From Rhodotorula mucilaginosa (taxonomy: Eukaryota > Basidiomycota > Microbotryomycetes > Sporidiobolales > Sporidiobolaceae), in NCBI GenBank assembly GCA_034406715.1, contig CP137881.1:434001-498000 (forward strand): a stretch of DNA of 64,000 bases, read 5' to 3'. The notes beneath the pieces were generated by a model, which was not told the origin of the DNA, did no database searches, and saw only the letters and a program-made list of their open reading frames with translations. The position numbers and the translations under genes were made by a program. Within the stretch, counting starts at the first letter, position 1. Each line of letters starts with the position of its first letter. Of this stretch, positions 8,240 to 63,829 are shown piece after piece.

Positions 8240-11200
8240 ATGGAGCAGCAGCCGGACAAGGTCGTGATCGAAGGGTTCATGCTCAAGAAGAAGCGCAAGG
8301 CACTCCAGGGCTACGCTCGCCGCTACTTTCGCCTCTCCGAATCAGGTCCGTCTCCCCTCTCCTCGGGGTTGCATCACACAGCTGACCATAGGCATGCACA
8401 GGCTCGCTCTCGTACGCGTTCAATCCGAACTCGCCCATCCGCGACTCGATCTCGGTCCCGCTCGCCTTCATCTCGGCGTCGCGGAAACTGCGCACCCTCG
8501 ACATTGACGGCGGCAACTGCGTCTACCACTGCAAATGCCTCTCCTTAAACGACTTTGACAAGTGGGCCACCGCCCTCAAAGCCTTTATCAACATTGCCCA
8601 CAACCACCCCCGCAACGAGCGGAACGTCCATGCCGTCGGGAGGCAGACCCTCCTCGCCTCGTCTGAAACCGCTCCGGCCGTCCCCGCCGACCAACTCGAC
8701 CGCGTCTATGCTGCTCTCGCAAAACTCAGTCAGGTACAGTTTGCGTTTCTCTCTTGTCCTCGTTCCATAGAAGAAACTCACCCGCAACCCCCGCGGAGCA
8801 GCCCATCTGCGACCTCGAATTGGTCGCGCACGAACTCGGCCAAAAAACCACGACGACCGTCTTGTCGACTTTGCCGGCCTCGTCCTCATCGTCTCCTCAG
8901 GTTCCAGCCCCGTCAGCAGCAGCTTCCCCCGCCGTTGCCGCGACTCTGTCCTCCTCGACGACGACGGCCGGTTCTTCGTCCTTTTCAGCCGCGACGGCGC
9001 CTTCCTCGACGATGACGACGACGACGACCAACGCCCCTCCCCCCTCTCCCTCCCCTGGAACTACCCTCACAAGCAGCAGTAGTAACACCACCGGAGGCGG
9101 CAACGGCGGGAGCAGCAGCAAATTCCGCTTCCTCGGCAAACGATCCAATTCGACCAGTCTGCACGGCCTGCATCCTCATCATCATGCTACCCCCGCTCCT
9201 CCGGTGCCTGCGCCGCCTCACTCACCGGGAGGCGTGGTCCGATCTCCGACCTTGATGTCAAGTTCGACTTTTACGTCCGCGTCAGCGTCTGCGGCGCCCC
9301 CTCCTCGTCAGCCAGAGAGGTCCAACTCGACCGCCACCACCACCTCTTCACATTCGCACTCGAACCCGAATCCCGCTTATGCGCCCGACTCGTGGACGGC
9401 GCGTCAACAGTTGAACGAGGCCATCTCGGTCTTGAAGGCGACGCATGCCGAATTGATCGCGGCGGTGCAGGCTCTGCCGCTCGTGGTCGTCCCTTCTCCT
9501 TCTCCCCCTCAGCCTCCTTCTGAGGAGTCTCAACAGAACCAAAAGGCGGTCTCCTCCTCCAAGGATCAGTCTTCTTCGTCGTCGTCGACGACGACAACTC
9601 CCGCGCCACTTCAAACGACCGACCTCGACTCCACTCGCGGCGGGGGCGGCGGCGGCGGCGGTGCCTCCGGCCCCTACTCGTATCCCTACCACCCCTATTC
9701 AACCTCGTCGGCCTCCTCTCCACCCGGTTCCCCCACCGGCGCACTCAACCGCTCCTTCGCCTACCAACGCACCCTCGGTCATACGCGCAACGCTCCCTCC
9801 CGAGCTACGACCATCGCGTCGAGTTCGAGAGCGAGTTTCGTTAGTGCTGTGGAGTGGAACCAACCAGAGACGGCTGGAGCGGGAGCCGGGGGTTCGGAGT
9901 ATTGGTATGATGCGGTGCCGGTACCGGGAGAGTTTGTGCTTGATGATGAGGAAGAGGAGGGCGCGGGTCGTCGTCGTCGTCGTCGGCGTTCTTCTTCCTC
10001 GTCATCGTCCTCTTCCTCGCGTCCTCCTCCCGGAGTCTCGTCGTCGTCGCCGCCTGCTGCACCTGGCGAGCGAACGGCATCATCTCCCGAGTCTGTCGAG
10101 CGTCGCGACTCATCGTCGTCCGAGTCGTTGAACACTGTGATGCGCTCAGACAATGAGGATGAAGAGGAGGACGAGGAGGCTGTTGAGACCAACATTGTGG
10201 CGGAGGATGAGGACGAAGATTCGGGCGATGACGACAACGACAACGGAGCAGGCGACGTTGCTGCCGCCGACGCTTCTTCGGTTCATCATGCCTCGTCACC
10301 TGGAGTCGCCGAAGCGGGAACGGAACCGACCACGACGACCACAACGACGACGACGGCCGTAGTGGCGGTACAGCGCAGGAAGGTATTGCCGCACCCGGTG
10401 GCGGGAGACGAGTTCTCGATGCTGGGCATGCTGCGTAAGAATGTCGGAAAGGTGCGCTTGGCTTTCCTCCTTCTTTCTTCTTCGCCTCCTCCTCCTCCAT
10501 TGCGCCTCCTCGTTTTCGGCCGTGCCTCTTCGGTCTCAATATCGACCTCCTCCTCGAGCCCGAACTGCATCGAGAGAAAGAAGTCCTTAGCATGACTAAC
10601 TCGCAATCTCGAAAAAAAAAACAGGACCTCTCGACCATCTCATTCCCCGTGACGATGAACGAGCCCCTCTCGGCTCTGCAACGCCTCGCCGAGGAACTCG
10701 AGTACTCGGACTTGCTCGACCGCGCCGCGGCGGCGCCGAGAGGGTCGCTCGAGCGACTCATGTTTGTCGCCGTGTTTGCGGTCAGTGGCGCGGCTGGGAA
10801 CAAGTATCGCAGTTCGAGGAAGCCGTTGTGAGTGGCGGTCGCTTGGGTGTCCCTCTCTCTCTCTCGGCGGTGAATGCTTTTCGCTGATCACGGCGATGGG
10901 AACAGCAACCCGCTCCTGGGCGAGACTTATGAATGCATCCGCCCCGAACGAGGCGAGTCTTTCCCCCCTCTCTTTCTCTCGTATCGTGCGCGCGTCATAT
11001 CTAACATCCAGACGAGACGACATCACCACACAGGCTTCCGGTTCATCTCCGAAAAGGTCTCGCACCACCCTCCGGTCCTCGCCTTCCACACCGACGCAGC
11101 ATCCCGCGGCTGGCAGGTGTCGGGACATGTCGCTCCGAACCAGAAGTTCTGGGGCCGGTCGATGGAAATCTTTGTCCTCGGCGATTGCAGCGTGCGCTTC

Positions 11201-11972
11201 CTTGACGACAGTGACGAGGAGTACTCGATCCGGAAACCGTCCTCTTTCGTCAAGAACCTCGTCGCCGGGACCAAGTACATCGAGATCGTCGGCGACCTCG
11301 TCGTCTCGTGTTTGAACAGTAAAGCCCACGCGGTCGTCTCGTTCAAAGAGGGTTCGTCGTGGGGAGGCGTCAGCACGCGCAACAAGATTGAAGGTCGTGT
11401 GGTGGACGAGCGGGGGGTGACGAGGATCGAACTCGTTGGGAGGTGGGACGACGCGGTCGATCGGAAGGATGGCAAGCACAGCTTTACGAGGTTGTGGCAG
11501 ATTGCCGATTCCCCTCCGAGTGCGTCACTCACCGCCGCCCTTGTTGCCTTTCAGCCAGATCATTGCCTATCACGCCGTATGATTGACTGACTGCCTATTC
11601 TGTGACCGTCGTGTTGCACGCACAGATCCCGAACGCTACTACGGCTTCTCGTACTTTGCCACGACCTTGAACGAGACGACCCCGCTCGAAGCGGGCCTCA
11701 TGGCGCCGACGGATTCGCGCCTCCGGCCGGACCAGCTCGCCCTCGAGCGGGGCGACGTCGACGAGGCCGAACGGCTGAAGCAAGTCGTCGAGGAGAAGCA
11801 GCGCTCGAAACGCAAGAGTGGGAAGGCGCCCGAGCCAAAGTGGTTCGCGAGGAGGAGGGAGGAGGAGGGAGGCGGGACGGCTAGTAATGGTACGGGCGGC
11901 GCGTGGAGCTACGCGGGAGGGTACTTTGAGACGAGGGAGAAGAAGGCGTTCGAGGATCCCGACATCTTTTGA
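8240..11972 (+). CDS. Oxysterol-binding protein with PH and ORD domains
   Basis: Lipid-transfer protein of the OSBP/Osh family, carrying sterol or PI4P between membranes at contact sites. Seven exons (8240-8345, 8402-8733, 8802-10451, 10625-10827, 10906-10952, 11034-11519, 11626-11972) sum to 1056 residues. A PH domain spans about 8-115 (VVIEGFMLKKKRKALQGYARRYFRL... to DFDKWATALKAF). The ORD begins near 697, with KPFNPLLGETYE at 762-773 and EKVSHHPP at 786-793, both lipid-site signatures, then YYGFSYFA near the end. Between PH and ORD lies a ~550-residue Ser/Thr/Pro/Gly-rich linker from one large exon, with acidic runs. Intron 5 needs a GC donor (GCGAGT at 10953) to keep PERG|FRFISEK. Architecture is closest to yeast Osh3 but no GOLD domain was seen. 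Confidence 0.92.
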
Positions 11973-17539: not shown

Positions 17540-20500
17540 ATGGCAGCAGACTATTCTCACCTGCTCCCCCCGCCCGTCCTCGACCGCATCCTCGAGACTG
17601 CGTTCCACACGACGGACGCGGACTCGGACCGCTTCCCTCCTCCAGTCCAACTCACCACGCTCGCCTCGCTCGGCAAGGCCATCAATGCCAGCGTGCGCCG
17701 CATCCTCGCACGCGAGGTGGTCCTCCAGGATGACGACAACCGACTCGTCGACGCAGAAGAGGGACAATCCGCCGTGCTGCTCGCTCGAGTCGTCAACGAC
17801 CCCAACTGGGCAAACGACGTCAAACTCCTCACGGTCGTCAATCCCGTCTTCGACCAGGCTAGCGATCCAGCATTATGCCACCCGCCCCCACCCCCGCCTT
17901 TGGACGACGCCGCCTTTTTCCTGTGCCTCTCGCGGTTCGAAACCCTCTCGTCCTTCACGTGGCACTCGCACCGCATCCCGCCCGAGTTGCTCTGCCTCGC
18001 GCTCGGTCAAGCCGCCAAGAACTTGACCAACTTCAAACTCGAGTTGGTGCCTCTCCCTCTCTCCGGAGGGACGACGACGACGGACGCTGCTGCGCCCCCT
18101 TCGAGTCCGCCTTTGCAACAACACCAGAGTCCCACCTCCGCCTCGGGTCTCTACAGCCCTCTCCTGCACGGCAGTGGCGTCGGCAACGGAACGGCGACTT
18201 CAGCAGCCGCGTCCGCGCCCGCCCCGCGCTGGGACGCCCCTCACCTCGCCTCGCTCCCCGCCAAACTCACCCACCTCTCCCTCTCGAACCTCTCGTCCCT
18301 CGGCGCCCAATCCCTCGCCGAACACGCCCTCCCCGCCCTCCCCATGCTCGAGTTTGTCCAACTCGAAAAGACGCTCTGGGTCGACGATCACGTGTTGGAG
18401 GCGATGGGGAGGCATTTGAAAGGGTTGGGGGTGTTGAAGGTGAGGGAGATGGCCGGGACCAAGTTGAGCGAGAATGGGTTGGGGGAGGTGTTGAGGGGCT
18501 GTCCGGAATTGAGAGAGTTGCACCTCGATTGCGTGCAGGGTGCGCCGTTTTCCCCTCTCCCCCTCTCTTCTATGACACCACACTGACTCTCTCACAACAC
18601 TGACTCGCCTACTTGCCCACCACGACGACGACCACGATGATCACGACCGCAACAGGCCGCTTCTCCCGCGCGTGCTGGCAAAAGTTGACCCCCTTGCCCT
18701 CAAACCTGCGCGTCCTCCGCCTCTCGTACTCGGAACAAGGGCCTCACAAATCCTGGCTCCTCGACCACCTCGCCTCGCTCTCTCACCTCGTCGACGCTTC
18801 GAATTCGGAACTCGAACACCTCGCGTTGACGAGGATCGTTGCGGGGGATGGGAAGGGCAAGGCCCTCGTCCCGGGATCGCATCACCTTGCGCGGTATCCG
18901 ATCGATCCGGTTCTCGATCCGCGCTCGTTGACTCTGGGCGAGAAGGACCTCGATGCCCTTGTCGGAGTTGGAGGAGGCGGGAATGAAGGTGGTGGTGAAG
19001 GAGGAGGGGGGAGGGAATGGCGCAAGCTCGAGTTGGACTTGTTCAGGATTGAGCAGGACCAGTTGAAGCGGATCTTGGAGGGGTGTACAAAGTTGAAGAG
19101 CCTCAAGGCCATGTTTGATGCGCCGTTCCGCAATTTGGTGAGTTCCATTTCCCGGGTCCTTTCTTCCTCGTCACGCATCTTCGAGCTCGGGGGAACATCT
19201 CTCTCTCTGTGTCCCTGCGGGTCTTTGTCGTGCTATCGCGGAGCAGATGGCAACTGACTCAAAACTCTAATATCGTCTGTGTGGCGCATTATACAGCTCA
19301 CCCTCGCGCCTTCGTTCGCGGCCTGTCCCGAATTGCAACACCTCGAAGTCGCCATCCCGCCCGGTCATTCGCCCGAAATGGCGAGCGTCACCCCCGCCGA
19401 GTACTTTGCGGCGGTCGCGCCCGTCTTTGTTTCCTCCGCCGGCGCTTCCGAGTCGGGTACGGCGGCTGAGGCGGCGAGGGAGTCGGGGCAGCCGGAGCAG
19501 TCACCGCGTCCGCAGCACCATGGGCATGGGAGGAGGGCGTCGCTCGCTACTTCTGCGGGGTCGCCGACGAGGACGAGGACCAACGCCTCGTTCATCGCGA
19601 ACAACGATGCAGTAGCCCCGGAAGGCCCGACCGTCCCCATCGACCTCGCCGCTCTCGACAAGGCGACCACCGCCACCGCCCGCAACTGCGTGCACCACCC
19701 GCTCGAAGCGCTCGATTCCCTCCTCCCCGTCACGAAAGACTGGCGCCGGTTCCTCAAAAAGGCGCATGCGCTCGAACGGATCGCTTGGACGGGGAGGGGC
19801 GGGTTGGGAACGTGGGAGTTTGGGCAGAAGCAGGGGAGCAGTTTGGCCAGGGTCGAGTTTCGGCCGACGAAACCGGTCGTTGTGGGTGATGGCGAGACTG
19901 CGCTGAGCGGAGGTGACCAGTCGCCGACGAGGAGCAGGACGAGGACGGCTTCTTCGTCCGGCGGCGGCGGCGGTTTCGGTGGACCAGAGTCGTCGTCGTC
20001 GTCGTGGGGCTGGGATGGTCAGCTTGCTTCTCCATCGGCTTACACTTCGTCGTCGTCGCGCCGTCGCTCGTCGTCCGTCTCGCTCGCCGGGTCGTGCCTC
20101 TCCAACTTGTCCCTCTCGCCGACCCTGCAGCCGCAGCCGGTCCAGCGCTCTCACGGAGGAGGGGACGGATCTCACTCGGTGTTCTCCTCCCCGGCGACGC
20201 CGTTCTCGACCTTGATGGGACTCGGGATCCCTTCCTCATCGACGGCGATCAAGAGCAACGGCAACGCCGCCGGCGGAATGATGGGCGACGTGCCCTGCTC
20301 GCCCCCCGAATACCAACACGGGTTCGGGAACGGCAGCGGCAACGGCGGACGGAGGAGGTCGAGCGCTTCTTCGAGCGCCATGTTTGGCGCGATCGGCGCC
20401 AACTTTTTGGCTTCCCCGCCGCAGCACGACAACTCTGCCGGTGGCGGCAACAGCAGCGCGCTCGGGTTGAGCATGCCCCTCTACGAGGAAGAGACCTCTT

Positions 20501-21225
20501 TCAACGTGCCGTCGACGTTGTCGTCTTCGCACGTGCAGGACCTGTTTGGCTGGGCGGCCGAGACGGCAGCAGCGACTGCGACGGCGACGGCCCCGCCGCG
20601 CGGCGCCGACTCGTCGTCCTCCCCTTCTGGTCGAGCAGGAGGCAAAGGCGCGCCGAGCAGCAGCAAGGCCTCGAACCACAAATCGCTCCCTGCGATTCAG
20701 ACGACCACTACAACGCCCAAGGCGTCCTCGCTTCTCCCTCCCGCTCCGGCGCACTTGCCCGCGAAACCGCTCTCGTTCGCCGCCGCCGCCGCGTCGGCTG
20801 CGGCTGCCAAAGTCGTCAACACTTCGACCACCGGCGCGACTGCCCCTGCGATGGCGCGCACGGCTTCGGCAACTTCGGCTTCGAGTGCGATCTCGACGGG
20901 TGGAGGCGGTGGATCATCGTCCAAATCGGCGGGTTCGTCGCCGACGCAATCTCCCGGGCGCTCGACCGCTAGCGGAGGCGGCGGCGGTTCTAAAGCCGGA
21001 AACGGTCGCGGCGGCGGCGGCGGTGGCGGCGGCAGGTCGAACCGCTCGAGGGGCAAGTCGGCTTCGCCCAAGCAGGAGAAGAATGCGAGCCTCCCTCCCT
21101 CCGGACCGGCTGGTGGCGAGAACAGGCGCGCCTCGGGCGGAGGCAGCGGTGCAGGTGGCGGAAATGCGAGGAAGAGTGGTGGCGGTGGCGGCGGCGGCGG
21201 AAGGCGCCGAGAGGCGACTCGCTAA
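17540..21225 (+). CDS. Leucine-rich-repeat-like protein with Gly/Ser-rich tail
   Basis: Exons 17540-18539, 18656-19137 and 19297-21225 give 1136 residues. The first ~600 residues show irregular leucine-rich segments typical of F-box/LRR proteins (LPAKLTHLSLSNLSSLG, ELRELHLDCVQG, NLRVLRLSYSEQ, LKSLKAMFDAPFRNL). The N-terminal LLPPPVLDRILETAF resembles a degenerate F-box-like helix. The last ~550 residues are low-complexity Ser/Gly/Ala, ending in Gly runs with RGK/RSNRSRGKS. Two introns join in phase. It may be a substrate adaptor, but no defining F-box is certain; function unknown. It starts 169 bp from the divergent CRIPT start. Confidence 0.75.
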
Positions 21226-22029: not shown

Positions 22030-23255
22030 ATGGCTTATGACATGCGGCTATCGTCGCACGCCAACAACATCCGCCACACAATCCCTAAACAACTGGAAAT
22101 TGCCAACATTGTCCAGGGGCTCGGTCGTATCACTTTGCACCATGGTGGACAGGCAACGGAATACACTGTGCTTGCAGTGGGAGGTAAGGGATTCTTTGCA
22201 GTGTCCTGGCCTAGCCTTGACTCGAACGGTTGCATTCGAGCTAAATTGAGCTTTCTTGCAGGGCTTCTAGCCGTGTATTACCAGTGGAGGGATACAGCAT
22301 CCTCTGACGAGACTGACCAGGCCATCAACTACGCACTCAAATTTGGAATAGCATACCCAGTCCTTGACGTTGTAAGTCCGAAGCACTCACTGCTGGCACT
22401 GGGGACCCATCCTAACACATGCGCTCACAGCCTGTGCCACTGTACCTGGAAGGTGGTGACTGTCAGACATATCGACACAGCTTCGCGCTCTCGCAGACCT
22501 TTCGGTGAGATCCATGGTTGCCAGTTTTCAGTCTCGTACCCACCCTAACGAGAGATCACCTGCCCGCAGTGCTGCCGAAGTTGAGAGCGAGCTCAAGCCG
22601 ATGTCGATTCCGTCTTTGCTCCAGATCAGCTTTCGCCAGCAGAAAGAACGAAATCTAAGATGGAACGACATCCGCTACGAATTCTTGCTCAGCTTCCTCG
22701 ATGTCTCGGACTGGTACCGCCACAATAGCCATGATATTGATGACCCCCACACCGAAGCAAACAGACTCGGTGCTGCCAAGTCTCACCTATGTGGACTCCT
22801 GCACATCTGCTTCATGGCCTGGGAAGGTGGCGCAAAGCACCCTTACAACGACGGCAAGGGTGATACTTACTTGAACTTCTGGTTGAGGTCTGCACCCGAG
22901 GATGCCAAGGATAACATCCGCCATGCACTCAAATTTTCCCAAAAAGAGCTTCAGGAACACAAGGATGTCCGATGAATATACGCAACTCTGTGTTGACTGG
23001 CTTCGCCATCTCGGGGCTGGTTTCACCATGAAACAAGAAGATCATGTGCAGAAGCGCTACAGCCAGGCCTTTGGGCACATGCACAGCTTTGTTTGTCTCC
23101 ATTCACAGATCTCTAACCTGAAAGGAGCTGATTGAGGAATGTTTTGCTTGTATCGACAGCTTGCGCAGGTTGTGCACGGGTTCCCCGAACCACCAACTGA
23201 CACTACCTCCGGAGTCAAGCCGTGCAATCCACACATTCCCCTAGCAAGGAGGTAG
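22030..23255 (+). pseudogene. Orphan family, copy A (apparently damaged)
   Basis: Member of an unrecognised gene family repeated in this window. Exons 22030-22183, 22262-22371, 22431-22504 and 22570 onward have intron phases 1,0,2, the same as copies B and C. Aligned blocks: VLAVGG at the end of exon 1 (LLACGG in B, LLAYGG in C), ALKFGIAYPVLDV in exon 2 (ALLKIAYPTYDF in B), PVPLYLE opening exon 3 (PIPLYYR, PLPQYYR), and IRYEFLLSFLDVSDWY in exon 4 (LRHEFLLTFFALVECW in B). After KFSQKELQEH (around 22.95-22.98 kb) the homologous reading (YTQLCVDWLRHL...RYSQAFGHMHSF) continues in another frame, and the last exon (CLYRQLAQ) is not joined cleanly. So it looks like a recently decayed copy, or the sequence has a small error. 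Confidence 0.6.
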
Positions 23256-23878
23256 AACTTGGCTTGTCACGCAGGCAGCCATGCACGCACAAGGTGAATC
23301 TTCTTGATCTTAGGTTTGTGTGCCCCCTTCCCCCTATTTTATTCCTTGGCTGGTTCAGAATTGTAGAGCTTGTGATGTCTCCCCTCCTGTTTATGCTCTT
23401 GATCTTTCAGAGGTACTCTCGGTAACAGGGGCAGAGAGTTGTCATCTGGGCGCAAAGGCAAGAGACTTTATGGTGACACCTGAGCTGGCATAATGTCCTT
23501 GCGCTTGAACCTTAAAGGTTAGTATCAGCTGCGAGCATAGATTTGGAAGAAAAAGCAAGACAGTCTTTCAACGGGACAGGAGTCAGGATCAAGGATGACC
23601 GAGTCGAAACAACAAGAGCACCCTTTGCCGTCCTGATCCCCTCCTTGAGCTCAGCATTTCTCTGTAGCCCCTGACAGCTTTTGTGACTGCTAGATAACCG
23701 ATCTTGGCAAGCATGTCTCTTTCAAGCCGATAGATGGCTCTCAGCTCCGGCTGTTCTCTTCATCAAGCCTTCCTTTCGAAGCGCCGGTGCAAAGATCTTG
23801 TTTGCGCTTGATCCGGAACTCTTCCTGTGAGTAAACTCTGCCTGCTTTTAAATCTGGGACAGCAGTTTAATCAACAAT
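23256..23878. other. Intergenic / possible decayed 5' part of copy D
   Basis: About 620 bp without a supportable exon, between copy A and fragment D. It is where the lost 5' half of D would lie; I could not align it to the other copies by eye. Confidence 0.35.
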
Positions 23879-24337
23879 ACCAGAGCGCAGCACCTGAACG
23901 ATCGACTACGGGTGGAGAAAAAATACGAGCTGACTGCGGACGGTGACCGCACAAACTTTGGTCTCATGCGCGCCTTCCTGTTCTCGCGGGTTGACCTGAA
24001 GAAGTGTGCGACAGACTTTGCCAACCGGTGCACACACTGGAATCATTCATTCAGGGACCTCGAGGGTGAGGAGCATAGGGACCTACGGGAACGTTACATT
24101 ACGGCATTCACACCATTGTCAGTCTGAACTCCTCTCTTTGCTTCCAATGACAGAAGCTGAATATGCAATATACTGACTTGCCTGAACTCGGAACTTGTAC
24201 AGCTTGACACAATGCATATGTTGCGCAAAAGCTGGTCAAAGCCGGAGAATTCGCCACCGCCTGCTGCTGCACCACCCCCCAACAGCCTCGGACTGCGGCG
24301 CAATGTATTTGTCCCGCAGGATCGACGCCGGCTGTAA
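23879..24337 (+). pseudogene. Orphan family, fragment D (3' part only)
   Basis: Two pieces match the 3' end of the family. About 23879-24120 encodes CATDFANRCTHWNHSF...HRDLRERYITAF, aligning with CCKWIHQYWNGF...ELRGRYCHAF of copy C. 24203-24337 encodes LDTMHMLRKSWSKPENSPPP, aligning with the last exon of C (LDQVYRLYEQLPQAPKPPP). A plausible intron lies between them, ending in TTGTACAG, but its phase does not fit perfectly. No first, second or third exon was found upstream. Confidence 0.5.
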
Positions 24338-24591
24338 AGGTAGCTGCAGAAGCTGTTTACAACACTGTACTCTTGTCGTTGAGAACATGTTTTTCCTTCT
24401 TCTCGGTGTTCATTGCGTCTTGCGTCTCTTTAAAGCTTGAAGCGAGTCCTTTCTTTCCCTTGAGCATTGGCCGATGGCCAAGCGAAATATAAAGACGAAA
24501 AACGGTCGTGAAACTCGCGTAGCATAGCCCGGATCGGGGCCTTGTTTGGCCTTGATGGTCGTTCTCTTCCTCCCCCCCTTCACCGCCTCGG

Positions 24592-25786
24592 ATGGCCTAC
24601 TCGCGTACGCGGCTGCATAACCCGGTGGTGCGGCCCCCGAAAGGTCCGCGCACGCCTACGCACATCCCTGCGTCGCTCCTGCCGCTCACCTCGAACCGGA
24701 ACGCGCACATTGTCCGGCTGTACTCGATCCTGGTCCACCTCGTCTCGCTGCCCCCTTCGCCTCCCACTTCGGTGCGGCTCGTGCGGGCCTGGCGAGCCCT
24801 CGCTGCGTGCAAGGAAGTCCACCTGGGCGTGCTGTGGCGCCTCGGAGCGGCGGTGCTCGAGCAGACGCGAGATGGCAGCGAGCGCTCTCACCAAGGCGAC
24901 GAAGCCGACGACGAGGACGACGAGGCGGCGCAAGAACGGGCTGAACGGAGGGCAGAGTGGCTGAAATCGTGCCAGGAAGGGCTGCTCGACCGCGTCGACA
25001 AGTTTGCCGAGTACGCGCTCGCGCTCGTCGCCGCCGGCCGCATCGACTTTGCCCTCGACGAGCTTGACGGGTGCGTTCTTCGCTCCTCTTTCTCTCTTTC
25101 CATTCCCTCTTCCAGGAACAGCTCTTGACTCTCGAGGCTTCGACGATGCAGCTACCTCGATAATCAGCCCTATCACGACTCGATCTCGCTCAACACGCTC
25201 TACGGCCAGCTCGCCCTCCTCTCGGTCCAGCCTGCGCCCTTGCCGCCCCTCAACGCGGTACCCTCTTCCTCCTCGTCCTCTTCCTCCGCGTCCGACTCTT
25301 CAGACGATGAGCTGTACCCTGCTGCGAGGAATGGTCGCTCAGCAGCGGCGGGAGGGAGCAAGCGAGCAGCGAAGCGAGCTCGTGTGACCGCTCGAGCCAA
25401 TCGTCAGTCTACCCTTTTCCCGCGTTTGCCCCCCTTCCCCTCGTGCTGACCCACCACGTGGGTATGCAGACTCGAACGGCGAGATCAAGGATGACTACGG
25501 CCCTTTGCTGCGCGCCATCGCCGAGGAGCAGCCTTCGCTGTTTGCGAGGGCGACTCAACGCCTTCGACGAGCAGCTCACCTCGAGGAACGCGCCGCCCAA
25601 GAAGAGGCAGGGCACCGTGCTGGGCAAGGTGAAGCAGCACGCTGGCTTGCTCTGGTGCGTCGCCTCTCGACTCGTCTTGCCGACTTGTTCCCCCGTTCTG
25701 ACCTCGTCGCTGCTCGACAGATCCGCACGCACGTCGACCGCCAGCCTCCTCCTTCTTCTCGACACGCTTCTCCGCTTTCGCCTTGA
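24592..25786 (+). CDS. Probable RNA polymerase I factor RRN11-like
   Basis: Exons 24592-25070, 25152-25402 and 25470-25786 (the last may hold a 66-nt in-frame intron at 25655-25720). The N-terminal half reads HIVRLYSILVHLVSLPP, VRLVRAWRALAACKEVH, LGVLWRLGAAVLEQ and later ALVAAGRIDFALDELDGYLD, NQPYHDSISLNTLYGQLALL. This helical-repeat style (RAWR.L...L.W..G...L, then YL...PY.D) is that of Rrn11, the TPR-like subunit of the Pol I core factor that recruits TBP to rDNA promoters. An acidic linker (DEADDEDDEAAQ) and a Ser-rich basic stretch follow. The name is a judgement from pattern only. The C-terminus is uncertain: from about 25.55 kb another frame also looks coding. Confidence 0.55.
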
Positions 25787-26851
25787 CCTGAGTACACGTA
25801 GCGGTCGCCGCACGAGTGCCCACCGCTTTCTACATCTCAACAAAATCTGCTCGCCGCCTTTCGCTCTCTTTTCGCTTTTTCTCTCGCCTGTGATGCAGCT
25901 CCGCCCCGCCACCCGTCCGCGACCTGCGCTTCCCCCTCCTCTTCTACCCACGCCCCCCACAAAGGCTCCATCGAAGCCCTTCCCCAGGATCCCCTTTCCA
26001 AAGCGAAACGGCGGCATGTCCGATTCGGGTGCAGGGGTCAAACTGGAGCCGACAGCGAACTCCCTCTCCGCTCCCACACACACTTTTACCTGCCAGTACG
26101 CTGGCAGGCCAGTCGCCGTTGTGTTGCGCGCGCGCCCTGGTCAAACGGGGTGTTTTGCGCGCCTTCGCGACCGACTCTGGCGAGCGGTTTGACATCTCTC
26201 TCGTGTTCTTTCTCGTTAACTGCTACGCCGGCGACACCGCATTCGCGGCTGACCCCGGCTCTTGCTACTCGGTGCTGCTCGACCGACTGGGCTTCACTTT
26301 CGCTCGTTTCTCTCGATCTTGACCCTCACGCTGCTGTCTTCTCCTCCCCTTCCTCTCTCCCACTCCTCCCCCTCTTCCACCTGATCTCGCCACCCATCCT
26401 TATCCGGAGCGTCCGCATGTTCCATACATGGACGATCCGCATACGTGGTGGCGAAGAGTGAATATCCTAAAAGAGCGTGATTTCGCTATCCTCCTCCAGC
26501 TCTCGGGCAATGACCGGAAGTTAGATAGTATCACAGCTCACATCTATTTGTGTATGCCTCTTTTTGTATCTTCTTCTTCTTTTGATTGCTGTAACTTCGG
26601 CTATTTAAACAAGAGCCTCATCGTGCACCGCCGAAGTTGGCCTCGAGAAATGAGATTCAGAAGCTGTCTCGCGCCGCTCAACAAGGCTGGTCCTACTGCT
26701 CGCCCTTTGAGAAGAAACTTTACATGTCTGTTGCCAATGGCAACTACAGAGGCTGCGCAAGACAAGAACAGGGGAGAAAAACCCACAGGAAACGATTCCT
26801 AGCCTCGAGGAAATCATCTCAAGGTCAAGTGGTCCTCCGGCTCGCGGCAGT
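25787..26851. other. Gene-poor stretch between RRN11-like gene and copy B
   Basis: About 1.06 kb. The plus frame that overlaps the RRN11-like 3' end stays open to 26192 and may be C-terminal coding sequence of that gene. Nothing else is recognisable. Confidence 0.35.
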
Positions 26852-28091
26852 TTAGGATCTTGCTCCAGGCATGAATGGGTTGATTTCGGAAGCGGTGTCA
26901 TGAGCAGCGGCAGCATCCGCCGTGGGTTTGGGCAACTGCTTGTATTTTTGCCACACGCCCTCAACCTGTCGGAAAGAGTACTCCCTTTGGTCAGCTGCTT
27001 GCCGGGTTCCTCCCTTTCCACGGTCACAAGAAGGGCGACTGACTAGTCTGTGCACGCTCTTGAATGCCTGGAAGTAAGCGGTGCTCAAGCCGTGTTCATT
27101 GATGTTGTTGAAGCCCTTCGAGAACTGCCGAGACCAGTTGCAGTGCCAGCGGACAAAGTTTGGCAGATGTCCCGGCAGATCCTGCTGCTGCAGGAACTTG
27201 TGAGCCCGCTCAAGCGCCTCTTGTGCCTGCTCGGACACGTCTCTAGACTCCAACTCGACGTCTTCAAGCTGTCGGTGGGCGTCGCTCATAAAAAGGTGGG
27301 CCAGGAGGAAAGAGTGCAGGAGAGCACAGAAAGGAGAGAGGCGGCGATCAGATGTACCGGCATGTGACTTTGCATCGGACCGCACAAGAGGCGTGCTGTC
27401 CCAGCACTCGACGAGAGCAAAGAATGTCAGCAGAAACTCGTGGCGGAGGTTGTTGACGCTGATCATGCGGATCCCATTGCCGGATTCGAGGGCACACGGC
27501 ACGGGGGCAAGCGTCGAGGGTAGAAGAAGCCGCTTCCTGCCCGGTGAAAAGGTTCTGCCATGTCACAGGATGAGCTGTCAGCAGGAGGCAACTAAGGATG
27601 CGAAAAAAGCGGCGTGAGCTTTTCACCCTGTTCCATGACAGTCACTCAATATGAAGAGTCTGCGGTCGACTTCACCGGTTGTGTGTCGATAATACAATGG
27701 GATCGGCTATATGTCGGCAGTGTAACTTATCAGGTGGACTGCCAAAGTACCGAAAGACTCCCTGCCACGCCTCACAAAGTCATAAGTTGGGTAGGCGATC
27801 TTGAGTAGAGCCGCCTTGATATGGTTGTGATCCTCTTGTTCAGCTTGTAGAGCTGGGAAGCCTTGGGCGAGGTGAAAGAGGTGCGTCAAACCCGAACGTT
27901 GTGACAAAGACTGGAACAAACGCTCTTAGCTTACCTCCACAAGCCAGCAGCGTGAGCCCGTCCGGAGGGTCCCGCTGTTTGTCCTCGACAGAACAAGCAG
28001 CGCTCGCTCGTTGCTCACATGTGAGGAACGTCCATTGCGTGCTGTTTCCGAAACTTGCGTTGCCGTAACTGTCGAGAAGTGAAGAGCTCAT
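26852..28091 (-). CDS. Orphan family, copy B (intact, 306 aa)
   Basis: Unrecognised protein. Five exons: 27935-28091, 27776-27852, 27627-27706, 27044-27536 and 26852-26965; they sum to 921 nt with phases 1,0,2,0 and no internal stop. Blocks shared with copy C and A: LLACGG at the end of exon 1, IKAALLKIAYPTYDF closing exon 2, PIPLYYR opening exon 3, LRHEFLLTFFALVECWDS at about residues 135-152, FCALLHSFLLAH about 35 residues later, then W.CNW..QF and STAYFQAFKSVHRL before the last intron, and VEGVWQKYKQLPKP opening the last exon. No signal peptide, transmembrane helix or known catalytic motif is evident; the core looks alpha-helical with conserved Trp/Cys/Phe. Codon choice is less GC-biased than in neighbouring housekeeping genes. 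Function unknown. Confidence 0.72.
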
Positions 28092-28814
28092 GGCGTCTCG
28101 GCTATTTTTACGGAGCCAAATCGCTCGCAGATAGCAGGTTGTGCGTAATGAGCTTGTCGAGGAGTATGCAGAAGGAGGTCAAAAGAGGTCCCGCTTCTTT
28201 GCGCCTTTGAAATGGCCAAGGGGGATGTCCGCGGCTTGTCCGGAGCGAGCGAGCCGAACGTCTTTTAGAGATCGTGAACTCATCGGGGCGTGTTGTACAG
28301 TTGTATGTGAGACTCATCTCAACCACAAGAAGCTTTAGACGGGTCAAGCGGCTCGGATGTAGCAAAAACGTAGTCCCACCTCGCAAGCCCGACCTTGCCC
28401 GACTCAAGGCGCGAGATTGCCGGCTTAGTGAGCACTCTTGATAGCGGCCAATGGCCTTTAACAGCGCAACCACAAGCAAGATCTTGCCCTGAGCAAAAGA
28501 GATCAGGTCCGTGTATACGCCTCCGCTGCAAGACGCTATAGCGAACGGCCAACGTTGGGGCGACCTTCTTATAAAATCGTCACGGCTAAGGGTCAAAGCG
28601 CGAGAGTCATGAAAGTTGCTTTGCCAAAGCTTGCGGGGACACGTGATATAGCGTGAGTAGTGCTGCACCGGTCGGGAGGACCAAACAAACGACTGCACAC
28701 TTCTTTCGCTTGAAGAGTAGCCACAGAAGTTTCATGCAAATCTGACTTCCGTAACCCAAACTGCTTCTTTATATACGTGTGTTTCTGAGGTACAGCTAGA
28801 CTGCACAACTACAA
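28092..28814. other. Spacer between orphan copies B and C
   Basis: About 720 bp holding the promoter of copy B (minus strand) and the 3' end of C. A minus-strand frame of ~196 codons opening with GTG spans 28108-28698; it has no ATG start and no family match, so I do not call it a gene. Confidence 0.4.
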
Positions 28815-30185
28815 CTACTGAGGAGTGCAAATGTCCTCACCGCCTGGTGGTGTCGCTCTTGCGCTCGGGTGGAATCGCGAGGGAGGGCGACCGCTCGAAG
28901 ACGGACGGGTCTTTGCCAAAGGAGGGGGTTTTGGAGCCTGCGGCAACTGCTCATACAACCGGTACACTTGGTCAAGCTGATAAGAGAAAGTGGTCAGCTC
29001 CGCCGCACGAGTGGACCACAGAGAAAAGCGCAGAGGGAGGACAAAAGACGGACAAAGTTGTGCATGCTCTGGAATGCATGGCAATATCGCCCTCGCAGCT
29101 CGGACCGCTCAAGAGGGCCAAATCCATTCCAATATTGATGGATCCATTTGCAGCACAGCTCGGCCAGCGGGTCTGCGTGCTCCCACAGCAGGCCGGCTGC
29201 AAACTCCTTTGCACCACGAAAAACAATGTCAGTAGCCGCACTGCGGAAGGCCTGCTCCGGGCGGGCTAGACCACCGGTTGTAGACAGTTTGAATTCTGCT
29301 TGTTGACCGTGTCTGGCTCGTGTGTCGAGACCGGCATCCCAGGCAAGGAAGCAGAAGTGCAGGAGGGCACAGAACCGGGAAACGTCCCGGTTACTCTCGG
29401 GATTGAGTGACATAATGTTCTCAGGATCGACAGCGAGGGTGTCCCAGCATTTGACAAGATCAAAGAAGGAGAGCAGAAATTCGCAGCGGATTTCGTCCAA
29501 CCAGACATGATACCCTCCTTGCCTTGAGGGGTAAAAGTCCTGCTTCAACAAGGATGGAAGAGGGAGGGCCTGCTCTTCGCGAACAGTGCGTCTGCACTTC
29601 AAACCTGGTCAGAAGTTTGCTACCATGCTGGCAATGGGAGGAAACAAGCGTTGTCCCGAGTCACCTCGAAGGCTGCGTGGCAAAGGGCAGCAGACCGTGG
29701 CCTGATAGCACCACCAATTGTCGGTAGATTCTGCCGTCTTGGCCTCGATAGTATTGAGGGAGCGGCTATGTAGGCAATGAGGGCGTGGAAGTTGTGATCA
29801 GCACCAGCTCGAGGCCGAAGACGGAGACGGACATAATTGCAAACGGACGAAATCTTCAACGGGGTAAGGCAGGAGAAATCTGATCACATACTGCACCGTC
29901 CAGCTTTGTGCTACACGAGGCAGTTGGTAGTTCAATGCTGAAAGGCCTGGACAAGAGGCAGAACATGGTTCCAGGGCTTTGTGCGCAAAGAGAGAACCAT
30001 CAAACGAGCGTGTGGGAAGAAAGAGGCGGCGCACCTCCATAGGCGAGCAGAGGCTCGTGTAAAAAGGAAGACTGCTGGGCCTTCCGGATGGCCCAGAGAA
30101 GCTGTGCTTGTTGGAGCGACGTCAGGTGCTCGGCATCGATCGCGGGATCATTTCGGACGTCGTCTGGCGGGGGAGTGGTGGCCAT
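28815..30185 (-). CDS. Orphan family, copy C (intact, 349 aa)
   Basis: Paralogue of copy B. Exons 30035-30185, 29849-29946, 29665-29765, 29054-29591 and 28815-28976 sum to 1050 nt, with intron phases 1,0,2,0 as in B. Blocks: LLAYGG (exon 1 end), VIRFLLPYPVEDF (exon 2 end), PLPQYYRGQDGRIYRQLVVLS (exon 3 split across its start), IRCEFLLSFFDLVKCWDT, FCALLHFCFLAWDAG, CCKWIHQYWNGFGPLERSEL, RGRYCHAFQSMHNF, and last exon LDQVYRLYEQLPQAPKPPP with a Pro/Ser-rich tail ending CTPQ. The N-terminus (MATTPPPDDVRNDPAIDAEH) is acidic and Pro-rich without a signal peptide. Overall similarity to B is low outside these blocks, so the duplication is old or evolution is fast. Function unknown. Confidence 0.72.
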
Positions 30186-47659: not shown

Positions 47660-50527
47660 CTACTGCCGCTTGAGCCACTTTTCGGCTCGCTTGTCGCCTT
47701 TGACGAGCGGCAAGAGCTTTGCGGCGCAGGTCCGGTTGTGCTGGACGATCCAGTCCTTGTCCGCTCGGGTCATCAGCTCCCAGTCAATCATCCGCGTTTG
47801 GATCGGTACCTGTACACACATGTTTACAGGGAGTCAGCTCGTGGGAGTCGGGGAAGGAGCAAGTAGGAGGAGGGCTCACCATGGTCAACCGCTCAAAGCC
47901 GAACCATCTCCGGTCACCGAATTGCCGCCTCGTCTTGACCTCTTTGACGACGAGAACGCTCTCGAGGCGGATCCCGAACGAGCCTTCTTCGTAGAAGCCC
48001 GGCTCGTTCGAGGTGATGTGCCCGGGGACCAGGGGAGAGTCTGCCGAGGAGGGGTCAGTTTTCCCGACTTTGCATCGCCGGCGTTGGACGCGAAGAGACT
48101 TACTGAAGTAGGTCTGACTGTGCGCGATGCCGACCTGCGACTCGTGAACCGAAAGGAATTCGCCGACTCCGTGCCCAGTTCCGTGGCCGCTGCGTGCCCA
48201 TGACGGTCCTCGTTAGCCCGATCCTTCCATCGCAAGCACATGAGTGGCTCACTAGTTCATGCCGTCACTCCACAGCGGAGCCCGCGCGAGCGTGTCAAGT
48301 TGGTCTCCCGTCGAACCCTCCGGGAAGATTGCCTTGTCGACCGCAATGTGACCTTGGAGGACTCGCGTGAACGCGCGTTTCTGCTCAGCCGTCGGGCGTC
48401 CAAAGTGCATCGTCCGGGTTGTGTCGATCGTGCCGTCGAGGTAGTTGGCGCCCGAGTCGTTCAAGTAGGGAGTCGTTTTCGAGATGGGGATCGGGCGAGT
48501 CGGCGAGGGTTGGTAGTGCGGCAGGGCTGCGCACGCCACGGCGGTCAGCTATGTTCTTCTTTTTGCAATCTACACTCGGACGCACCGGCATTCTCTCCAG
48601 TCGCCGAGATGTTTTCGTACGCGAGCTGCAGGAACAACGGGTTCAGCTCAGGGAATGCGCTTCGAGCTGACAGCCCGCGCACACTCACGTCGGCAAAATT
48701 CTCTCCATTCTTGCGGTACTTTGTAAGCTCCTCGGCTGCGTCCCACTCGGTGACCTCTTTGCCCTTGGCGATCTGCTCCTCGAGCCAGGCTTGCCAGCGT
48801 GCCTAGAAGGAAGACGGTTAGTTGACGGCGGAGAATGCGCGCATTTGAGAACACCACGCACCCAGGCGGCGCCGTCGCGGAGGTAGGCCCTCCTGAACCC
48901 GTCGATCTCGACTTGATTCTTGATCGCTTGAGCCGCATCGACGGGCGACTTTTGAACGAGCTCGACCTTGTTCTGCCGACCGGCGTCGTTTTAGGTCAGT
49001 CATTTCGACTCACCTGCAGGGGCAAGATTTGGGTAAAGAGAGATCGTTGGACGCACCTGACCGACTCGGTCGACGATGGCCCAGCTGACCGTCGCGTCCG
49101 TGGCGAGAAAGTTTCCCTCTTCCGCCGCGACAATCTCCTCGACTTCCTTGATCGCATCCTGATAGTCGCGGATCTCTCCTCCCAGCTCAGCAATTGCCTG
49201 CTCGACCTCCTTCGTCAGACTCTGACGCTGCACCCAGATCCGGACCTTGTCGCGCGAGACGAGCACGTAAGCGTAAAAGACGGGGTCGAACGCAATGTCG
49301 CCACCGCGGAGGTTGAGGAACCACGCGATCGGGTTCAGCGCGCTGAGCAGGTAGTACGGCGAGTTCGGCGAGGTCGACGAGCACTTGTAGGTGTCGGAGA
49401 GCCACGCGCGCAGGTCGGCGACCTTTTCGGCGGCGGGTTTTCCTGTCGAGGATTGAGAGAAAGGTCTAGCTTCTCTCCGCTTTCCATGCTCGGTAAGAGA
49501 GGATTTCTCACCTGAGAATTTGAGCGGATGGGTGTAGATCTGCTTGTGCGTACGCGGAGGCCGGTCGTGCCAAACCCGGTCGACGAGGTTCTCCTCCGGA
49601 AAGACGAGTTTCAGTCCGTTCTTTTTCGCGTCTTCAGACAGCTTGCGACCGGTTTCTGTGAGCTCGTCTGGGGGTGTCAGCGATACTTTCGGGAACGAGT
49701 GCTTCAGGAAGTTTCCGCTTGAGACAAGGAAGAGACCCCTCACGGTAGTCGAGCAACGAAGCGTCAATGCCAATCTTGCTGCCCGATTTGAGCTGCGCAC
49801 GATATTTATCCGTCAGCCGATTGCCTCCATTCCCTTCGCAGAGAATGGCCACCCACTCCGAGTACCCAATCGTTCCAGTTCTTGACATCCTTTTGTCCGA
49901 GTTTCTCGAGCGTCCAGACGGACGAATCGATCTCTTTCGCGGCCTGGACCCAGTACCGCGTGTCGACAAAGAGGTGCGCTTCGGTTTCGGTCACGATGGC
50001 GGTTCCGGCCGAGCCGGTGAATCTGCGGTTGGGCGGGTGTAAGTACGGTTCGAGAGCGAAAGAGTGCGAGAGGGTGCGTTCCTCACCCTGATAGCCAGTG
50101 ACGGCGCTGGTCACACGGCGCCACCCATCTGAAGGCGTTGTAATCAGCTACAGTCGTCTTCGTCCACCACCTACTTGTCCGCTTACTCGCTCTGGTGCGC
50201 ATCGGCCGTCGGTACGATGCTGCAAAGTTCCCACGCAGTCAGCCGAAGGTGGAAACTCCAGTACGGGGGGAGTCGCACTCACTAAGCCTGCAATCCCTCC
50301 TTCTTGAGTTCGTTCCTGAGCGCTTCGACCCTCCCTTTCGTCTCTGTCCTCATCGTAGCGAGCGAGTTTGAGTCGACCGCGCGGTGCACCACATGGTCGG
50401 CGGCGGCGAACGATTTCTTCTCGCCGTAGTCAAGCGAGTCTTGCGCGACGAGCGTACAGTCCGAGTAGACGGACGAGGCTGAAGAAGTCTGGCCGAGCAG
50501 CGGCGCAAAGCAGGAGAGAAGTCCCAT
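47660..50527 (-). CDS. Xaa-Pro aminopeptidase (aminopeptidase P, M24B)
   Basis: Metallo-peptidase that removes an N-terminal residue preceding proline; cytosolic XPNPEP1-like form. About a dozen exons, read from YIVPTADAHQSEWVAPCDQR through GFTGSAGTAIV, FVDTRYWVQAAKEID, LKLVFPEENLVDRVWHDRP, KVADLRAWLSDT, LNPIAWFLNLRGGDI and DGFRRAYLRDGAAW to the catalytic domain. Metal-binding blocks seen: YLDGTIDTTRTMHFG (two Asp), GHGVGEFLSVHE (His), EPGFYEEGSFGIRLES (Glu) and FGFERLTMVPIQTRMID. The C-terminus is KRAEKWLKRQ. The start at 50527 gives an N-terminal extension (MGLLSCFAPLLGQ) with no strong targeting signal. The stop lies 202 bp from that of the convergent 767-aa gene. Confidence 0.9.
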
Positions 50528-53638: not shown

Positions 53639-54145
53639 CTTGTGACGCTGTGGTCAAAGTTGAGGACAGGTGAAGTGTAAGAAGAAGAGAGGCGGACGGA
53701 ATGCCCAGCAAGACGGCTAGGGGTGAGGGTGCGTGCGCCAGACCGGCTTGTCCGCGGACTAGAAAGCTTGGCACGGGCACAATTTACGATGCCGCATATG
53801 CCTGAGCGTAACCGTAGCACATGGACGACGCGGCAGCGCACGAAGGCGAATCTGCTTTGCGCAGATGAATCAGGAGCGCAGCTGCGATGAGGCCCAGTGT
53901 CAAAGTGGTGGGTAGCGACATCGGAGCTGCAGCATAGACGCCGATCGGATCACAGCGCGGCATCAAAGCTAGAACGGAGCTAGTGTCGAGCAGGAACGCG
54001 GTTTGAGGAGAATGTCTGTGGCCAAGAGCAAGCCGAGTTGTGAGCGGCGAATACTCGAGTTGTGAGCGACGACTTTGGGGAGCAGCTCACAATCCGTCCT
54101 CCGTCCGGCCAGCCTGACTGTGGCACCTGCAGCAGAGGTGAAAGG
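53639..54145. other. Intergenic region orphan gene / F-box gene
   Basis: About 500 bp between divergent starts. A minus-strand 61-codon frame (53784-53966) contains one hydrophobic segment (LGLIAAALLIHL) but no supporting evidence for translation. Confidence 0.4.
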
Positions 54146-56289
54146 ATGCCGAAGCGACCACGCACAAGCTCGCCCGAGCGCCTCGACCACGCCCGTCCAG
54201 CTTCATCACTCGCATCGGCAAGTGGAGCAGCAACGAGCGCCACGATCGCGTGTCGCCCACGAGCGCGGACAGGGACTGGGAGCGAGGGTCAGAACAGGCT
54301 CAGATACAAGTCCAACGGGTGAGTCGCTCTGCCCCTTTCCCTTGCCTGCGGCGTAGCCTCCGATCGCCAAAGTGGCGCAAGTGGCGTTCCGACTCGTTGG
54401 CGCCTTGCCCATTGCTGACTCATTCCAGGAGCAGTAAATACGAAGCAATGCCCGATACACGGTCAAATGTGCTGCCGATCCGCTCGCTCGAAGGCTCGCT
54501 TTCGGAGGAAGTCCTCCTTCGCTGCCTCTCATTCTTGTCCGCCCACGACCTCGTCACCGTAGCGCGCGTCTCGAGCGCTTGGCACCGCCTCGCACAAGAT
54601 CCTCAGGTCGGTCGCGCGCGGGGCGAGTCATTTCAGTGTACTGGAAGAGGCAGGCTGACGCTCCCCCAAACGCAGCTCTGGCGAAACCTCTACCTCTCGA
54701 CCTACGCCTCGGCTGCGACTCGTCGACAAGCAGCTTTCGGGACTGTGCCGCTGCCGCGCTCGCGACCCTGGCGAGAACTGTATCAGATCTCGACGAACTG
54801 GAGGAACGGCACCGCGAGGGCCACGGCGCTCGGGACCGAACTGCGTAAAGCTGTTTTGCCACCGGTCCCGTCCAGCACTGAGGTCGTCGACGATGCACGG
54901 GAAGCTGTTCGAGGTCTTTTACCCGTCGAGCCGGAGGACGACGACGACGACACGCTCCTGCAGTTTCACCACCAGTACATCTTTTCGGCATCTCGATCCG
55001 GTCCCGTCGTCATAGTGCACGAGACCCGACCGAATGGCAGCTCTAGCGTCATCGGCAGCTTCGAGTCGACGCGACTGGGCGTACGGGCGGGTTCTCGACC
55101 GACTCTCTCCGAAATGCGGCTCGACGCGTCGTCCTCTTTTCCGATGATGATGGCCTTGTTCTACTCGACTGGGCAGTACGCCCTCTTTCGCCTCGACCTT
55201 CCCTCGACCTCCTCGCGATCACGGCCCTTTTCGGCCATCGAAGTGTACACCTCGACCTCTTTCCTCTCCGATCCAGTCACGACCGCGAGGATGCACTGGC
55301 CCCTCCTCGTCACCTTGACCGATTCGCTCACGCTGCGGTTCTTGCGCCTGTCGGGAGATCGACAGTCGGGCCCCGTCGAGGTCGACGAGACGGAAACGCC
55401 TTTGCAGAGTCGCGAGAGGTGGTCGCCCGTGATCCTCTCGCTCGAGCGAGCGGACGGCGCTCACGATACTCGGGGCAAGGAAGACGACGCCACGACGCAC
55501 TTCTCGGTCTCGCTGGCGTACTCGACGCCCGTCTTTCCGACGAGCTGGACCGTCGGGATGCAGCGCTTCGAACTGGCGGTCTCGCCCGCTCGGTTAAAGG
55601 TCGTCCGAGCCCAACATGCGACGGCTCCTCCTGCCCACACGCCATGGCCGTCCACTCTCACTCGAACACGACTCTTTGGCGCTTACGGCAGTCCGACGGC
55701 CGAGGTGTTTGCCCCTCCGCCGCGAAAAAGTCCCGTCACGAGCATCGAGCATTCGCACCCTTTTATCGTGACGAGTCGGACCGACAACACGATCGATGTC
55801 TACGAGGTCGTCCGGCTTGAGGCGCCTACGTCATCGCTGCACGTGGTCCACCGTCGGACACTCTTTGGACACACGGCTCGCGTTTCGAGTGTCGCTCTCC
55901 TCCCGACGGCGGATGCTGGTTCCCCTCAAGATAACACCTCGCCCATCCGCTGCATCAGCGCGGGAGACGACGGCGCTGTCAAGGTCTGGCGTCTCTTGCC
56001 GTTCGGGGCGGCGGGATCTTCTGAAGCAAGGCCGGCGCGCAAGCGGAAACGAACGGCGGCCCCTGAAGCGGATCTGCAGGTCCAGATTCGCAGGCAGGAC
56101 GCCTCCGCAACGGATGTTCCCCAGCTCTCCGACTATCAGCAGCTCAAGCGCAGGCGGACCGCACCGACGCAGGAACCGGCGCGGGTCCAGCGGGTCTGGG
56201 TCGACGAGGACAAAATTGTCTTGTTGCAGCGCCCGTCGGTTGGGGGCGAGTCTCGCGCGGGAGAGGTGCAGATGCTACGGTTCGATTGA
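54146..56289 (+). CDS. F-box protein with WD-repeat C-terminus
   Basis: Probable substrate adaptor of an SCF ubiquitin ligase. Exons 54146-54318, 54429-54606 and 54676-56289 give 654 residues. The F-box is residues ~78-125 (SLEGSLSEEVLLRCLSFLSA, HDLVTVARVSSAWHRLAQDP, LWRNLYL). A beta-rich, WD-like region follows, ending with one clear repeat (RRTLFGHTARVSSVALL ... CISAGDDGAVKVWRLLP). A Lys/Arg-rich tail (ARKRKRTAAP, QLKRRRTAP) suggests nuclear location. The first exon (PKRPRTSSPERL) also looks like a nuclear-localisation segment. An alternative start is the ATG at 54449, 22 nt into exon 2. Confidence 0.85.
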
Positions 56290-58069: not shown

Positions 58070-61000
58070 CTATTCATAGCCACGCAGGTTGCGCAGGTTG
58101 GCGAGGACCGTGTCGGGATCGGTGCCGACTGCTTGGGCGAGTTCCATCTGCTGATCGAGCGAGAGGTACTCGAACGCGGCGAGCAAGTCGCCGTCGAGGA
58201 TGCCCTTGGTGATGGCTCGAGAGACCGAGTCGTTCTTGACGATCCTGTCAACGGGGAAAAGGTCAGCTCCCTGCGTGCGTTCTTGCGGCGATATTGGTGG
58301 ACTTGCCGGTAAGCTCGCGGGTTCAGACCCGCGAAATGGAGGACATGGCGCATCATGGTCGTCTGGAGAGACTGCAGTCGCTTGAAGACGGCATCTCGCA
58401 CCGGGACTAACGTGAAAAGCGAGCCGTCGAGACCGCCTGTCGCCGCGAAGGGTTAGCTCGGTTCGGGGAAAGGATGGTGCGAAAAGACTCGCCATAGAGG
58501 ATGCCGTTCTGCTTGGCGTCTTCGTTCGGGAGGTGTTTCGCAAACAGGATCGATGCGTACGAATCCGAGCCGGCAGCGTATTCGGTTCGGCACATCAGGC
58601 GATGGCCAGCGTACGAGGCGATGTCTTTTTTGGGGGCGCGCGGTCAGCTCTCCGTCGTCTCACCTCCGTTCGTACGTCGGCAACTCACTGGTCGGATCGT
58701 ACTCGAAGAGGCGGAGAACACCGCGGTCGTCGTTCGAGACAAAGGCGAGTTTGCCCTCGTTGACGATAAAGTTGGCTCCGCCGACGCGCGATGGGCGGAA
58801 GTCGCGACCGAGCAGCACAAGCTTGTACGGGTCCTCCTGCGCAAGGCGTTCCGTCAGCGGGAGAAGTGATTCGAAAGCGGTGAAAGGGAGGCTGCCCACC
58901 TGGAACGCCACGAGCGAGATGCTCTGCTGCTCGTCGCCGATGAGCAAAAAGTTCTTGAGCGCTGTCAAGGTCGTCACGTGCACGCCGACGTCCAAGAAGC
59001 CGATCGCGAGCAAGAACTCGTCCTGCTCGAACGCGCGCGCGTACAGCTTTTGGCCCATCGATAGGAACAGGTAGCCGTTCAGGTCGCACACGTTGTTGAC
59101 GGCCGCTTTGGCCTCTTCAAAGTACATGAGCCGGATTTGGTGGTCTAGTCGTGGGCTGTCGGGGTGGGCGATGATCGGAATGACTTCAAAGATGTAGATC
59201 TGCCGGGCGTGCGTCAGGTTTCGATTCCCGCGGAGAGGAAACGCTCGGCAAACTCACGCCGCCCTTGATGGTCAAGTCTTCTGCGCGCGCGACGGCCGTC
59301 CCGACAGCGATGAAATCGCGCAGACCCGAGCGAGTACTCTTGGATTCGAGGCTGACCGACTTGAGCGACGTGACGAATTCGTTCTGGCGGAATTCATAGC
59401 TGCGGGCGACAATCGGGGTTAGCTTTGTTGTCGCTTGGTCACATTCTGGCGACTTACCCGTGGATGGCTTCCCAGGAGCCAGGGACGAGGAGCTCGAGCG
59501 TCGAGCGGTGCACCGTCGGCTCGACCAGTTCCGGGTCTGGGTGCATGTTCGCGGTCAGATTTTCGGAGATTCTCTCCACTCCTCTCTCTCAAAAGCCACC
59601 CACCTCGATCCTTCCACATCGGTTGACCGTCTTCGTCGAACGCGACGAACCGAGTCTCGTGCAGCGTCGAGCCGACATAGAGCCCCGTCTGCGGATCGAA
59701 CGCGACGTGCGAGTAGACCCGGTCTTTCGGGACGAGCGTGTACGGTAACGGCGTGTCGAGCACGAGGTCCCGTGGCAGGCGAGCGATCGTAAGGCCCTGT
59801 GTCGGCGCAGGATGAATCAGCTGATGTTGTTGACCGGGCGAGTGCGAAGAAAAGAACCGCACCTCTCGAGTCTGCATGGCGACTTCGTCTCCTTCGACTG
59901 GACCTCCGTGTTCATCATCGTGCTGCAACCCTCCCGAGAGCTCACAGAGTCCATACACGCCCCGATCGGAGTTCTCAAAGCAGCGCACCGGACCATGCTC
60001 GCCTTTGAGGACCCAAAGCGCTTCCTCGCCCGTGACAAAGACGCCGGCGTGCCCTCCCACGGAGCGGAACACGACCAGATCTCGTCGTGGAGGCGGGAGC
60101 GAGGGTGCTGTGGCGCCCTTTCGGCGAGATGGGGCGGACGGGACGTGCCGGACGCAGGTTTTGACGAAGCGGCAGGCGAGGCGGGGTATCGCTCCGGCTG
60201 TTGAGGGCGGAACGGCCGAGTGCGCTTCGTAGATGGCGAGTTGGCCGTTGGTCAAGAGGATCTGCGTGCGGTCAAGTGTCAGTGAGGAGATCTTTGTCTA
60301 CGTCGAGTCTGGAAAACCCCGCTCACCAAGAGGTGCAGCGTTTCTCGGCCATTCTTGCCGACGTAGGCCACGCAGACTCGATCCACCTTGACGTCGTCCT
60401 CGTCCACGTTGTCGGCGATCGTTCGCTCCGTTTCGCCGTCCGAGATCACGTTCGGGAACAGCGTCACGGCGGACGAGCTAAAGACTTCGACTCCGGAGGG
60501 GAGCAGGCGGATCTGTTCGGGTGGATGTCATCGTCAGGAACGCTCTAGCTGTGGTTTGAGCAGACGCGCCACGCACCTTCAGGTCACCCTTGCTGTCAAT
60601 CTCGGCAATCCATTCCCACCGTTCGGCGCCCAGTTCCTCCGGCTGAACAATCCCGTCCGCCGCCGCTACAGCTTGTTTCGACTCGGATCCCGATTCCGCC
60701 GCGGCACCGTACAGTGCATCCTCGTCCTTGTCCACCTCGGTCGGCAAGGCGTTCATGGTCGCGATGGTGGCTGCTGCTGGCCGAGCGAGCGCAACGGCGG
60801 CGAGCGAATCGCAAAACACCGCCGAGCGTTTCCCAGCTTTTCGGGCCGCCGCATCTTCCACCACCGGCGTCATCATGTCGAACGCGTCCAAATCCAGAGG
60901 GAACAACTGCTTCGAAGCGGCATCAAAGGCGTACACTGTCGGGGCGGTTCGAGCGCGCACGCCGCCGGTGGAGGAGACGGGCGCGTGCACGATCAGGTGC

Positions 61001-63518: not shown

Positions 63519-63829
63519 CCCGGTGTTCCTACAGTCTGACAGCTCAGATCAGCCTGCACACGGCGGTGACCGATTCCAGTCGACGCGAGACGACGAGGGA
63601 CGAGCTGAGGGGAGGCTTCCACGTGAGCCTCTGGTGGACGCGGTCTCCTCTCGCGCTGCTCTCTCTGCGAGCGTGCGAGTGAGTGACTGGCGCAAGTGCA
63701 GGGCCTGCTGTAGTACGCGCACAGTCGATCCAACGCCTGCCCCTCGCCCCGCGCTCTTTCGCTCCGTCAACGCGTGATCCGAGTGCCCGACCCCGTCCAC
63801 CGCTCTCCACCTCGACTCACTCACTCGCA
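63519..63829. promoter_or_regulatory. Divergent promoter CFT1/VAC8
   Basis: About 310 bp between divergent start codons, with no convincing exon. Contains both promoters and leaders. Confidence 0.45.

Follow-up and report, generated by a model that had tools for sequence, protein, structure and literature searches.

Between positions 22030 and 30185 of the window, the whole 64,000-nucleotide stretch of Rhodotorula mucilaginosa DNA analyzed here, a sequence-only reading had placed an old local family of genes with conserved exons and no recognized domain. We asked whether these genes are indeed paralogues, how the family arose and what its products might do.

Gene models and intron architecture

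Copy A (22030–23255, plus strand) consists of exons 22030–22183, 22262–22371, 22431–22504, 22570–23090 and 23160–23255; its exon 4 carries one net change of frame near 22965–22975, and the copy is a probable pseudogene. Copies B (26855–28091, minus strand; exons 28091–27935, 27861–27776, 27706–27627, 27536–27044 and 26965–26855) and C (28818–30185, minus strand; exons 30185–30035, 29946–29849, 29765–29665, 29591–29054 and 28976–28818) form, as predicted spliced models, open five-exon genes with an intact reading frame, encoding 309 and 349 aa, respectively. Copy D (23735–24334, plus strand) is a 3' remnant with an open end of exon 4 (23951–24124) and exon 5 (24203–24334), while upstream of 23951 weak, frameshifted traces of exon 4 extend from about 23735, with several frame changes in the copy. 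The splice sites in all models are GT..AG. Intron 4 of B (26966–27043, minus strand) is 78 nt long and open in frame, so that a transcript retaining it would code for 26 additional residues with no stop; intron 4 of A and that of C each contain an in-frame stop.

When the alignment columns of the introns were compared in the order A, B and C, intron 1 was located at 55/55/55, intron 2 at 91/91/91, intron 3 at 126/125/126 and intron 4 at 313/312/312. The phases are 1,0,2,0 in all three copies once intron 4 of A is corrected for the frame change, which accounts for its apparent phase 1. Positions and phases are thus homologous among A, B and C, and introns kept in the copies exclude a spread by retrocopying.

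The spliced models, rebuilt from both strands, return the coordinates of the sequence-only reading as well as its division into two intact genes (B and C), a damaged copy (A) and a 3' fragment (D). Its length for C (349 aa) also holds, but for B it gave 306 aa, three residues fewer than our model; the acceptor of B exon 4 allows more than one in-phase choice. Similarly, the phases proposed for B and C were recovered, whereas the restriction of A to the first three introns was not, since all four are common to the three copies.

Paralogy and divergence

In a blastp comparison against a database of five sequences, B and C were 29% identical with an E-value of 6e-28. A tblastn search of the 64-kb window with C as the query recovered B (4e-15), A (6e-11) and D (0.012), and leave-one-out HMMs run on the six-frame translated window detected A at 3e-10, B at 3e-16, C at 1e-24 and D at 5e-5, so that every member of the family was found by the profile of the others, strongly for A, B and C and weakly for D. 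Neither approach revealed further copies in the 64-kb window, and outside the four copies no match of the leave-one-out profiles reached an E-value of 0.5. Judged by these profile and tblastn E-values, A, B and C can be taken as certain paralogues, and D is very likely a paralogue of them.

Pairwise identity within the family is 27–31%. For B and C, the proportion of identical bases was 0.43, 0.55 and 0.37 at codon positions 1, 2 and 3, respectively, compared with a composition expectation of 26–27%. At identical fourfold-degenerate amino acids of this pair, the third bases agreed in 8 of 26 cases, with about 0.27 expected by chance, and in the two pairs involving A they agreed in 4/18 and 5/18. 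These figures for age and selection are comparisons among the paralogues A, B and C alone. With fourfold sites near saturation and a protein that is still recognizable, the sequence comparison indicates that the duplications are old and that the protein is under purifying selection. The age and the exon conservation claimed for this local family agree with the homologous introns, the near-saturated fourfold sites and the protein-level constraint, while the term fast-evolving would describe the low identity alone.

Domain, membrane and fold searches

No Pfam match was detected for A, B and C at E-values up to 10 or for D up to 1, and PHROGs and NCBIfam gave no match at E-values up to 1. Among PDB sequences nothing was significant, the best profile E-value being 0.44, which is at chance level; the earlier statement that no domain is recognized therefore extends to Pfam, NCBIfam, PHROGs and the PDB sequences. 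No catalytic motif or Cys/His cluster was recognized in the alignment, and neither a zinc cluster nor a bZIP was seen in the family. The proteins contain no transmembrane segment, with a highest mean hydropathy over 19 residues of 1.52, and no evident signal sequence, as the N-termini are not signal-like.

Structure prediction with AlphaFold covered exon 4 only, from C and from B. Both low-confidence models contain five long helices, arranged in an identical order, with a mean pLDDT of 44–45 and a pTM of 0.27–0.34, values at which the fold is not established. A Foldseek search with the exon 4 model returned a best E-value of 1.4, an outcome that carries no meaning given how poor the model is (pLDDT 44–45). 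Based on these models, the family proteins are probably mostly helical.

A tblastn search in plasmids and phages gave no match, as expected of a fungal gene, and scanning viral and prokaryote contigs for sequence patterns gave none either; neither result has a bearing on fungi. A literature text search, for which the lineage terms were guesses, returned no report of such a family.

The C-terminal tail

The proline-rich stretch that exon 5 specifies has low similarity, yet it is followed in all four copies by the motif [FH]-x-P-x-[AD]-R, which reads F-M-P-G-A-R in B, F-H-P-S-A-R in C, H-I-P-L-A-R in A and F-V-P-Q-D-R in D and is located 24–35 residues past the start of the exon. When the tails were shuffled, the motif appeared in 0.1–0.6% of shuffles per copy; the product of these frequencies is 1.5e-10, uncorrected for the post hoc choice of the pattern. 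Docking motifs usually have the appearance of a short constrained motif past a poorly constrained linker, and by this analogy the tail may act in docking, although we consider this doubtful on balance. The tail motif in four copies is, together with the low GC3 described below, what is new in this analysis; the preceding description of the locus was correct and slightly under-described.

Composition and neighborhood

GC3 of the family is 0.60–0.64 in comparison to 0.70–0.91 in eight neighboring coding stretches, and the overall GC content falls from about 0.58–0.63 outside to 0.51–0.55 across the family. Low GC3 would fit weak expression or relaxed codon choice. Between D and B lies another gene (24592–25402, plus strand) that is GC-rich and consists of at least two exons, with serine-rich and acidic stretches and no Pfam match; the low GC is thus a property of the family and its spacers rather than of the whole block. 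A suspected resemblance of this intervening gene to the RNA polymerase I factor Rrn11 received no support from Pfam. In a search for shared upstream motifs, no 8-mer was common to all three upstream regions.

Among the neighbors, Pfam sampling identified ordinary fungal genes: an oxysterol-binding protein (10874–11587), ribosomal protein L3 (15157–16149), a Fungal_trans regulator (PF04082; 34433–36319), a creatinase N-terminal domain (49003–49812), a pof12-like F-box protein (54142–56286) and pieces of a CPSF_A/RSE1-type propeller (within 58663–63548). Directly upstream of A, an open frame of 655 codons (19258–21222) with long glycine and serine runs has no Pfam match. The IMG/VR 3.1-kb contig IMGVR_UViG_3300027017_000121 encodes, at 410–1438, an L3 that is 58% identical to that of the window; the contig, classified as viral, probably derives from a cellular eukaryote.

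Origin and possible role of the family

Old local duplications would have yielded A and D on the plus strand and B and C on the minus strand, and subsequent birth and death would have kept B and C intact, left A with one visible lesion and reduced D to almost nothing; that the four copies form a local birth-and-death family is almost certain. Their products, of about 310–350 aa, would be soluble and intracellular and probably mostly helical; a helical core encoded by exons 1–4, as suggested by the low-confidence models, would be followed by a flexible proline-rich linker and a short putative C-terminal docking motif, [FH]-x-P-x-[AD]-R. Such a helical scaffold could bind one partner by its core and a second partner by the C-terminal motif. 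A non-enzymatic interaction role falls just short of an even chance, and the adaptor step within it would be the default for a protein with no recognized catalytic motifs; the polar residues that are invariant in LLAxGG, YPxxDFPxPxY and IRxEFLL might just as well belong to an enzyme of unrecognized type. Taken as one joint reading, a lineage-restricted soluble helical family with local birth and death and an interaction-adaptor role is offered tentatively, at somewhat less than even likelihood.

It is conceivable that the copies instead belong, in strongly diverged form, to a known fungal family that lies beyond the reach of HMMER with three to four sequences; a helical regulatory domain like the one in fungal transcription factors would be an example. 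The mostly helical prediction from the exon 4 models would suit this, the searches were all profile-to-sequence, and since identity within the family is already as low as 27–31%, a link to an outside family could escape such searches; the empty Pfam results up to their permissive E-values, the chance-level PDB match and the absence of a zinc cluster or bZIP nevertheless leave this explanation unlikely, if not to be dismissed. An origin in chance similarity or in artefactual gene models, to which the weak conservation of exons 1 and 5 and models built on DNA sequence alone might point, is refuted for A, B and C by leave-one-out E-values down to 1e-24 and by the coincident introns, while the assignment of D rests on its E-value of 5e-5 and its position; overall, we regard this explanation as negligible.

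Several copies on both strands, two of them broken, and a lower GC content would also be seen if the copies had spread by transposition and were now domesticated or dying. No repeat of at least 25 nt is common to the surroundings of the copies, although very old flanks could have eroded, neither a transposase nor any other Pfam domain was matched, and retrocopies are excluded by the common introns, all of which makes a transposon origin very improbable. Local clustering, dead copies, strong divergence and GC below the surroundings are likewise what a genetic-conflict family (meiotic driver, spore killer, or self/non-self recognition) with diverging local copies and dead relatives might display, but the same pattern is produced by ordinary orphan families, transmembrane segments are absent and the saturated silent sites indicate old copies with no recent burst, so that such a role appears improbable. 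The further proposal that A–D embody a fold new to description, with a helical core and [FH]xPx[AD]R docking under arms-race turnover (drive, self-recognition, anti-parasite defence) in a fungal lineage, is one to which we attach very little weight.

For fungal annotators, the local birth-and-death family provides a confirmed model of the family, with its introns, that lies outside current domain libraries, and its conserved tail motif is now offered for testing. Should the family prove to turn over between strains, it would become a candidate conflict system; for now, it counts as a further orphan paralogue cluster, with a function not readable from sequence.

Comparison with known systems

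The wtf spore-killer genes of Schizosaccharomyces pombe are a multi-exon, diverging family with pseudogenes, features that A–D have in common with them, and the likeness is confined to the birth-and-death pattern. In contrast to the wtf genes, the family described here has no transmembrane helices (maximum mean hydropathy 1.52), and identity between its copies is far lower. Fungal_trans (PF04082) represents helical regulatory domains, whereas A, B, C and D have neither a match to it nor a DNA-binding domain. A further likeness is to fungal orphan paralogue clusters in general, which also comprise local duplicates of low identity, some intact and some broken, that lack a known domain and have GC3 below that of neighboring coding stretches. 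No tested feature separates A–D from them, and the cluster is most probably an ordinary orphan paralogue cluster, presumably lineage-restricted.
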